Shown: piece after piece, positions 20,550-24,941 of the stretch
Position numbering within the stretch: the first letter of the stretch is position 1
Layout: each line of letters starts with the position of its first letter
DNA from: Acidobacteriota bacterium
Lineage (GTDB): Bacteria; Acidobacteriota; Terriglobia; Acidiferrales; UBA7541
Direction: 5' to 3'
NCBI GenBank assembly: GCA_003223325.1
Contig: QHYS01000063.1
Location: 1-64,000, forward strand
Length of the DNA stretch: 64,000 bases
Notes under the pieces: generated by a model
What the model saw: only the letters and a program-made list of their open reading frames with translations
Databases searched by the model: none
What the model was told of the DNA's origin: nothing
Position numbers and translations under genes: made by a program

Positions 20550-20579
20550 GAGAGATTCTTCGGTTCGCTCAGAATGACA
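20550..20579. repeat. Intergenic repeat of the GAGAGATTCTTCG...CAGAATGACA type, copy 1
   Basis: This uninterrupted copy matches the copy at 24239-24260 plus 24357-24366, which is split by a small insertion. Confidence 0.7.
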
Positions 20580-23189: not shown

Positions 23190-24206
23190 ATGATTGCAGA
23201 GTCGCTGCGCAAAGTTGAAGCCGGAAGCAATCTTTCCGCGCAAGAGGCGGAAGAGGTTATGGGCGAACTGCTCGAAGGCCGCCTGGCGCAAGAGCAGATC
23301 GTTGGCCTACTAGTTTCACTGCGCGCGAAAGGCGAAGCGGTGGAGGAACTGGTGGGATTCGCGCGAGCCATGAGGCGGCGAGCGAGTCTTGGAAGCAATG
23401 AGGCGAAAATCTGGCCGCTTGTGGACACATGCGGAACAGGAGGCGACGGTGGCGGCACATTCAATGTGTCGACGGCAGCGGCGCTGGTGGTGGCCGGCGC
23501 GGGCGTGCGCGTGGCCAAGCATGGCAACCGGTCTTTTAGCTCGCGCTGCGGGTCGGCCGACGTGCTCGAGGCCCTGGGGGTGAGGATCAATATCGCGCCG
23601 CAGCGGGCACTCGCGGCCATCGATCAGATCGGTATCGGCTTTCTCTTCGCACCGAGCATGCACACGGCCATGCGGCATGCCGCCGCGGCGCGTCGCGAGG
23701 CGGGAGGGCGCACCGTTTTCAATCTGCTGGGGCCACTTACCAATCCGGCAGGGGCGACGGCGCAGGTGATCGGCGTCCCGGCGGCAGCGCTGGTGGAAAA
23801 ACTGGGGCACGCGCTGGCGGAACTCGAGACGCAGCACGCGTTCGTGGTGCACGGGGTCGACGGAATTGACGAAATTTCGCTGAGCGACGAGACAGAAGTT
23901 GCGGAGGTGCGCCCACATTCCGTGCAGAGATATCGTGTGAAGCCGACGGATTTCGGGGTGGTGCCCGCGCGCCGCGAAACTTTGGCGGGCGGCGATGCGG
24001 CCACGAATGCGAAGATCATCCGCAGCATTCTCGATGGCGAACGCGGGCCGCGGCGGGATTTTGTGTGCATCAATGCAGCCGCGGCGCTGGTGGCCGTCGG
24101 CCGGGCGGCGCATTTCCGTAAAGGCACTCTCCTAGCGGCAAAAGCGATCGATGCGGGATTGGCGCGGGCTAAGCTAGAAGCGCTGATCGAATTTTCGCAC
24201 TCTTAG
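23190..24206 (+). CDS. trpD: Anthranilate phosphoribosyltransferase
   Basis: Second step of tryptophan synthesis, joining anthranilate to PRPP. The diagnostic segments DTCGTGGDGGGTFNVSTAAALV, VAKHGNRSFSSRCGSADVLEALGV and HGVDGIDEIS are present, with LGPLTNPAG in the middle. Length is 338 residues. It stands alone on the plus strand, with trpG-trpE-aroDE on the opposite strand and convergent, so the tryptophan genes are split into two transcription units here. The ribosome binding site is weak; the leader has alternate hairpins. Confidence 0.96.
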   Translation: MIAESLRKVEAGSNLSAQEAEEVMGELLEGRLAQEQIVGLLVSLRAKGEAVEELVGFARAMRRRASLGSNEAKIWPLVDTCGTGGDGGGTFNVSTAAALVVAGAGVRVAKHGNRSFSSRCGSADVLEALGVRINIAPQRALAAIDQIGIGFLFAPSMHTAMRHAAAARREAGGRTVFNLLGPLTNPAGATAQVIGVPAAALVEKLGHALAELETQHAFVVHGVDGIDEISLSDETEVAEVRPHSVQRYRVKPTDFGVVPARRETLAGGDAATNAKIIRSILDGERGPRRDFVCINAAAALVAVGRAAHFRKGTLLAAKAIDAGLARAKLEALIEFSHS

Positions 24207-24238
24207 CTTCCTCACAGGTTCTACCCAAAAAAGATGAG

Positions 24239-24366
24239 AGAGATTCTTCGCTCCGCTCAGAGGCTGTAACTTTATTCAAAATTCGCGCATTTTTCGCATC
24301 TAACCTCAATGTTTTCAGCGACGGTTTTCGCGAAAAATCAAAAAAGTCACAGCCTGTCAGAATGAC
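24239..24366. repeat. GAGAGATTCTTCG...CAGAATGACA repeat, copy 2, split by an insertion
   Basis: GAGAGATTCTTCGCTCCGCTCAG ends at 24260 and the repeat resumes with TCAGAATGACA at 24357. Removing the intervening 96 bases and one TCAG restores the same sequence type as 20550-20579. Confidence 0.7.
24261..24356. mobile_element. 96-base MITE-like element with terminal inverted repeats and TCAG duplication
   Basis: The element begins AGGCTGTAACTTT and ends AAAAAGTCACAGCCTG, so the ends are imperfect inverted repeats of about 13-16 bases. The interior is AT-rich and non-coding. It is flanked on both sides by TCAG (24257-24260 and 24357-24360), consistent with a 4-base target duplication. It interrupts an older intergenic repeat whose unbroken form is seen at 20550-20579. 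No transposase is in the window, so it would depend on one elsewhere. The family is not identified. Confidence 0.65.
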
Positions 24367-24380
24367 ATGCGGCGCCGAAG

Positions 24381-24941
24381 CTAAAGTGCGAGGAAGTTGC
24401 GCAGCATGTGCATGCCCACCTCGGTGAGCACGGATTCGGGATGGAACTGCACGCCTTCGAGGGGCAGCTTGCGGTGGCGCAGGCCCATGATGAGGCCATC
24501 GGTCTCGGCGGAGATTTCCAGTTCGCGGGGCAGGGCCTTTTTTTGGACGATGAGGGAATGGTAGCGTGTGGCCACGAAGTCCTGTGGAAGTTTGCGAAAA
24601 ATGGTCTTGCTATCGTGATGGATACGGCTGGTCTTGCCGTGCATCAGGGCCGGGGCGCGCACTACTTTGCCACCGAATGCGTAACCAATGGCCTGATGGC
24701 CAAGACAAACTCCCAGGATTGGTAGTTTGCCCGTGAATTGGCGGATAACGTCAACGCAAATGCCGGCATTTTGCGGCTCACCGGGGCCGGGAGAGATCAC
24801 GATGCGCTGCGGCTTTTTCGCGGCGATCTGATCGAGAGTGATCTGGTCGTTGCGGCGGACTTCCAGCTTTTCGCCCAGCTGGCCGAGGAATTGCGCCAGG
24901 TTATAGGTAAACGAATCGTAGTTGTCGATCAGCAGGATCAT
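24381..24941 (-). CDS. trpG: Anthranilate/aminodeoxychorismate synthase glutamine amidotransferase
   Basis: Class I amidotransferase that feeds ammonia to TrpE (and possibly to the folate enzyme). The catalytic triad is visible: Cys in LGVCLGHQAIGYAFGG, His and Glu in QFHPESVLTE. The N-terminal LLIDNYDSFTYNLAQFLGQLG is typical. Length is 186 residues. It lies 180 bases downstream of trpE on the same strand; the gap carries an intergenic repeat. The window contains no separate pabB, but a pabC-like aminotransferase is at 41.4 kb, so a dual role (TrpG/PabA) is plausible. Confidence 0.95.
   Translation of the reverse strand: MILLIDNYDSFTYNLAQFLGQLGEKLEVRRNDQITLDQIAAKKPQRIVISPGPGEPQNAGICVDVIRQFTGKLPILGVCLGHQAIGYAFGGKVVRAPALMHGKTSRIHHDSKTIFRKLPQDFVATRYHSLIVQKKALPRELEISAETDGLIMGLRHRKLPLEGVQFHPESVLTEVGMHMLRNFLAL

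Follow-up and report, generated by a model that had tools for sequence, protein, structure and literature searches.

What interrupted a short intergenic repeat between two genes of tryptophan biosynthesis type in a soil acidobacterium, and which enzyme brought the intruder there? The window, the whole 64,000-nucleotide stretch of DNA that was analysed, belongs to a draft Acidobacteriota genome (G000; 6.1 Mb in 377 contigs) and holds trpD at 23190-24206 on the plus strand and, convergent to it, a GATase/TrpG-type gene at 24381-24941 on the minus strand. A preliminary description had placed at 24239-24366 a MITE-like element of 96 bases, with inverted ends, an AT-rich non-coding interior and a TCAG duplication at both edges, which had entered an older intergenic repeat and had to be moved by a transposase encoded elsewhere.

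Structure of the element and its empty site

The element lies where it had been described, its actual size being 95 bp (24261-24355, plus strand). End Y is AGGCTGTAACTTTAT (24261-24275, plus strand); in other subfamilies it reads AGGGTGTGACTAAATTG and there resembles the right end of the IS1182-type element described below. End X (24341-24355), which reads AGGCTGTGACTTTTT when taken from the minus strand, resembles the left end of that element. In the terminal inverted repeats (TIRs) AGGCTGTAACTTT and AAAGTCACAGCCT, 13 of the 15 end bases pair, and shuffling the element 200,000 times never produced as many pairs. The interior has a GC content of 39%, the window one of 59%. No open frame exceeds 31 codons, a length insufficient for a transposase; no gene is present and a search of Rfam with the element gave no match. 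Inverted ends and a non-coding, AT-rich interior were thus correctly recognised, and a duplication does stand at both edges, although it comprises 5 bp rather than TCAG, with CTCAG on the left (24256-24260) and GTCAG on the right (24356-24360), the latter mutated from CTCAG in its first base. In each of three distinct copies, those of the window (at 24356), L032 and L039, the base adjoining the element is no longer that of the consensus (a change of G to C when read along one strand), perhaps a trace of imprecise joining.

The duplicated target is most likely 5 bp long, and sister copies have it intact on both sides (CTGAG/CTGAG, CTCGG/CTCGG). Since CTSAG is an interrupted, nearly palindromic sequence, it could also be read as a TSA duplication of 3 bp with a TIR longer by one base (GAGG...CCTC).

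The interrupted repeat consists of a left half, GAGAGATTCTTCGCTCCGCTCAG (24238-24260, plus strand), and a right half, GTCAGAATGACA, which includes AATGACA (24356-24367, plus strand). The same repeat stands uninterrupted at 20550-20579 (plus strand), as had been noted for the empty form, and is the sole match in the window at up to three mismatches, none being expected. The left half can be aligned to an empty repeat at the orthologous site of G059, a genome of the same genus with a TrpD 88% identical, in which the trpD/trpG spacer carries the intact repeat AGAGAGATTCTTCGCTGCGCTCAGAATGACA (...GCGCTCAGAATGACA), and in G060, of the same genus with a TrpD 92% identical, the same spacer holds an uninterrupted variant. 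With the orthologous repeat empty in relatives, the insertion in the window is seen directly; presence at this site in all relatives, which the preliminary description had named as an observation against transposition, was not found. The element accordingly combines small size (below about 300 bp, no transposase gene) with TIRs, a target-site duplication that is perfect in sister copies and has its empty counterpart in G059, and multiple dispersed copies, the properties by which MITEs are recognised.

Copies across genomes and the target repeat

A strict TIR-pair pattern retrieved the window copy only, because the ends of further copies are mutated, and looser searches were needed. These located six copies in G000 (C6, which is the window, C47, C146, C318, C362 and C184), so that the five additional copies supply what the preliminary description had asked for. 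Relatives of the same family hold one copy (G017), two copies (G069) and six complete copies with further pieces at contig ends (G058), and a pattern scan of public genomes added PLJN01000059 and PLZN01000221, both acidobacterial MAGs. The total is 17 complete copies, including the copy on C184, which was read as two pieces around an intron. Matches of the scan outside Acidobacteria, in Aeromicrobium (L066) and Prevotella (L072), were judged to be due to chance. A search of viral contigs with the TIR pattern led to a single genuine match, at a locus also present in G058: the IMG/VR contig L249 (IMGVR_UViG_3300037316_000181) bears the MITE locus of G058 C418 and may be a prophage or else bacterial DNA under a wrong label. 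The transposase query found no match among the viral contigs.

All 17 complete copies sit at one point, CTSAG (or CTCGG/CCGAG), within TGTCATTCTGAGCGAAGCGAAGAATCTC, a weakly palindromic intergenic repeat of 30 bp, in its standard or a recognisably variant form. The preliminary description had correctly seen an interrupted intergenic repeat, whereas the role of this repeat as a regular target was not visible from the window. The window contains 82 CTSAG sites, which extrapolates to about 7,800 in G000, so that the chance of six landings out of six within repeats is about 3e-10, even if 200 repeats are assumed. With respect to the repeat, 12 of the 17 elements are oriented one way and five the opposite way, and both orientations occur inside one near-identical subfamily (G058 C157 and PLJN01 versus G058 C259), while the six copies of G000 agree in position and orientation. 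The duplication follows the local variant of the repeat, being CTGAG/CTGAG in most intact cases and CTCGG/CTCGG in G058 C157. Both the mixed orientations and the variant-matched duplications argue that the insertions, as read from sequence, are independent and site-specific and do not reflect one composite repeat that spread. The copies on C198, C418 and C274 of G058 have some flank in common, and these three insertions may be related events. Y1/REP-associated tyrosine transposases were considered as movers of the 30-bp repeat itself and were set aside, as the genes are present and none is flanked by an intact repeat.

A candidate helper element

When the CTSAG and TIR pattern was run over 95 genomes of the order, a high-copy element was found in G052, which belongs to a different genus of the same family. 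Contigs of G052 mostly end about 100-200 bp within this element, as expected of a long repeat, and 19 left ends (AGGCTGTGACTTTTTCGTGCG...) and 15 right ends (AGGCTGTGACTAAATTGGCGG...) could be read, which bear the 11-bp sequence AGGCTGTGACT (AGTGTGTGACT in two left ends). Of these 34 ends, 33 are located inside the same repeat as the MITEs. Sixteen left ends adjoin TGTCATC directly followed by CTGAG and two are reversed, 13 right ends adjoin CTTCGCTCAG and two are reversed, and the orientation bias thereby equals that of the MITEs (29/33 and 12/17, respectively). A copy on C90 occupies CTGAG without a recognisable repeat, and CTGAG therefore appears to be the core of the target.

The left end codes for 82 N-terminal residues (P0001), which match the NCBIfam IS1182 model NF033551 (E=4.8e-6) as a partial hit far below the full-length cut-off and are about 50% identical to IS1182 transposases on Microvirga plasmids. 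The right end codes for ...WCALAYNLMHFGTHLLR followed by a stop, which by eye resembles the WACLTYNLMRW C-terminus of full IS1182 relatives, the TIRs of which (GAAGCTGTGAAGAAACC, GGAACGTGTGAAGAAATTGG) have the same TGTGA core. We infer that the left and right ends belong to one IS, joined across an interior that is not assembled. IS and MITEs have asymmetric ends in common: one of them is TGTGACTTTTT, and the opposite one reads TGTGACTAAATTG in several MITE subfamilies. Further inward the MITE does not evidently resemble the IS ends, so that the termini may be all that the two share.

A transposase with matching ends, for which the preliminary description had proposed to search the genome, is at hand in a related genome but not in the assembly of the window itself, and the expectation that a gene-less element draws on a transposase encoded elsewhere is supported. 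The draft assembly of G000 yielded no full-length element, unpaired TIR or matching IS with these ends; it does contain IS1182-like genes, and the single end that was read has a different TIR, AGGTTGTTGCAAAACC. A MITE may outlive its helper and an autonomous copy in the same genome is not strictly required. Loss, non-assembly or cross-mobilisation are possible reasons for the absence of the helper from G000.

A second IS1182-like group of the genus was encountered in G000 (L215, on C44) and G058 (L213, on C348), with ends in which CTAGCTAA is joined to AGGYTGTTGCAAAACC; the common CTAGCTAA flank could be a target or a terminal repeat. A longer non-autonomous relative of about 216 bp, AGGTTGTGACTTTTTTGG...AAGTCACACTCT with a perfect CTCAG/CTCAG duplication, is located on C304 of G052 (L242), and L245 and L246 are two further MITE-like copies.

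Proposed mobilisation and alternative explanations

The element is very probably an IS1182-family MITE for which a full-length IS1182-type element, alike in its ends and aimed at CTSAG in the TGTCATTCTGAGCGAAGCGAAGAATCTC repeat, supplied the DDE transposase; such mobilisation in trans is proposed from the shared ends and target. The transposase would recognise CTSAG inside the weakly palindromic repeat and make a staggered cut there, by which, most likely, 5 bp would be duplicated. The mover of the window copy would have been a transposase of the G052 type or a close relative, now lost or unassembled in G000, and targeting of intergenic repeats would spare host genes. Whether such a transposase has become tied to a single position within a dispersed repeat, the weak palindrome and CTSAG core of which it reads, so that the repeats serve as safe landing sites for IS and MITEs alike, we consider an evenly balanced proposition.

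The length of the duplication bears on the family assignment. Duplications on record for the IS1182 family, in the accessible parts of the reports on ISPse1 and MITEPye1, are 4 bp long (PMC3281130, PMC11578231), whereas that of the present element is 5 bp (or 3 bp). As the family has been called heterogeneous (PMC5678879), this mismatch lowers the case for IS1182 membership without excluding it. A different IS family with AGGCTGT ends, for example of IS5 type, which would have GAGG ends and duplicate TNA (3 bp), would accommodate the interrupted palindrome CTSAG equally well through the 3-bp TSA reading with GAGG...CCTC ends. This is quite improbable, since the 11-bp AGGCTGTGACT ends were found together with this target in one element only, which codes for an IS1182-type transposase; PF01609 transposases, tried as a source, gave 34 matches in six genomes, and none of the 30 loci fetched from MITE-bearing genomes had matching ends.

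Two further explanations do without repeated transposition into the repeat or without transposition as the reason for the element's presence. The uniform position and orientation of the six G000 copies, a first search that matched the element together with the repeat, and flank pieces common to three G058 copies, for which some local spread is possible, would suit a single insertion into one repeat, followed by spread of the composite of about 127 bp through recombination between repeats or through mobility of the repeat itself. It is rendered quite improbable by the occurrence of two orientations in G058 and within a near-identical subfamily, by duplications that fit local repeat variants, by the empty G059 repeat at the site orthologous to the window and by a separate IS with the same insertion point and the same bias. 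Retention of the element for a function, such as that of a bidirectional terminator, might be considered from its position between convergent genes and from inverted ends that are able to pair, but the fold of the single-stranded DNA is no better than that of shuffles (z = -1.03), two genomes of the same genus have an empty site and the copies decay independently, which makes this explanation highly improbable.

Comparison with known elements

Like the IS1182-family MITE proposed here, MITEPye1 of Paracoccus yeei is a small, non-autonomous element of that family that lacks a transposase gene, has IS1182-like terminal repeats and is found in low copy number (1-3 per chromosome) and mostly in intergenic regions. 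Unlike the acidobacterial MITE with its likely 5-bp duplication, it has 4-bp direct repeats and 18-bp TIRs, and the accessible part of its description mentions no repeat-specific target, whereas the acidobacterial MITE hits one point of a 30-bp repeat (PMC11578231). IS1272 and the palindrome-targeting members of IS1182 have a transposase of the same family and inverted-repeat targets, but the stem-loop target of IS1272 is replaced and not duplicated, while the acidobacterial target is retained and duplicated (PMC5678879). The REP-targeting elements ISPsy8, ISPpu9 and ISRm22 are alike in that all copies occupy the same precise point within a palindromic repeat between genes, with a short duplication made by ISPsy8 and ISRm22; they differ as full ISs of the families IS3, IS110 and IS4 from Proteobacteria (PMC1525189). 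The text of that paper mentions neither MITE nor IS1182, and a search of open-licence papers yielded no account of an element of IS1182 type, or of a MITE, that is locked to a repeat and makes a duplication, and no mention of the sequence of the present repeat.

Earlier work has described IS1182-family MITEs, ISs that target repeats and IS1182 members that target palindromes, each by itself; their combination, in Acidobacteria, appears to be new. With IS and MITEs at one repeat point, in both orientations and with empty sites, it is a clean example, drawn from several genomes, of how a DDE transposase chooses its target site. Repeat-targeting elements, which are known for the most part from Proteobacteria, are extended by it to Acidobacteria and to the IS1182 family with its MITEs, and it offers a testable system for how a DDE transposase reads a weak palindrome.

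Nested and variant copies

The copy on C184 of G000 is split by a group II intron of about 620 nt (L007:1537-2152, approximately 118241-118856; Rfam RF00029, 57 bits), which has no ORF and lacks the length needed to encode the usual intron protein. At its junctions, TTTTGATTTTT leads into GTGTG and CTACTCAC into CCGC, and the nest has three levels, with the intron within the MITE within the repeat. The copies L003, L005 and L006 lie in a longer form of the repeat that contains, downstream of the element, a GC-rich insert, TGTCATTCTGAGCGAAGCG being separated from NAGTCGAAGAATCCCTC by CCCGA...TCGGGACGC; the version in L006 is more diverged.
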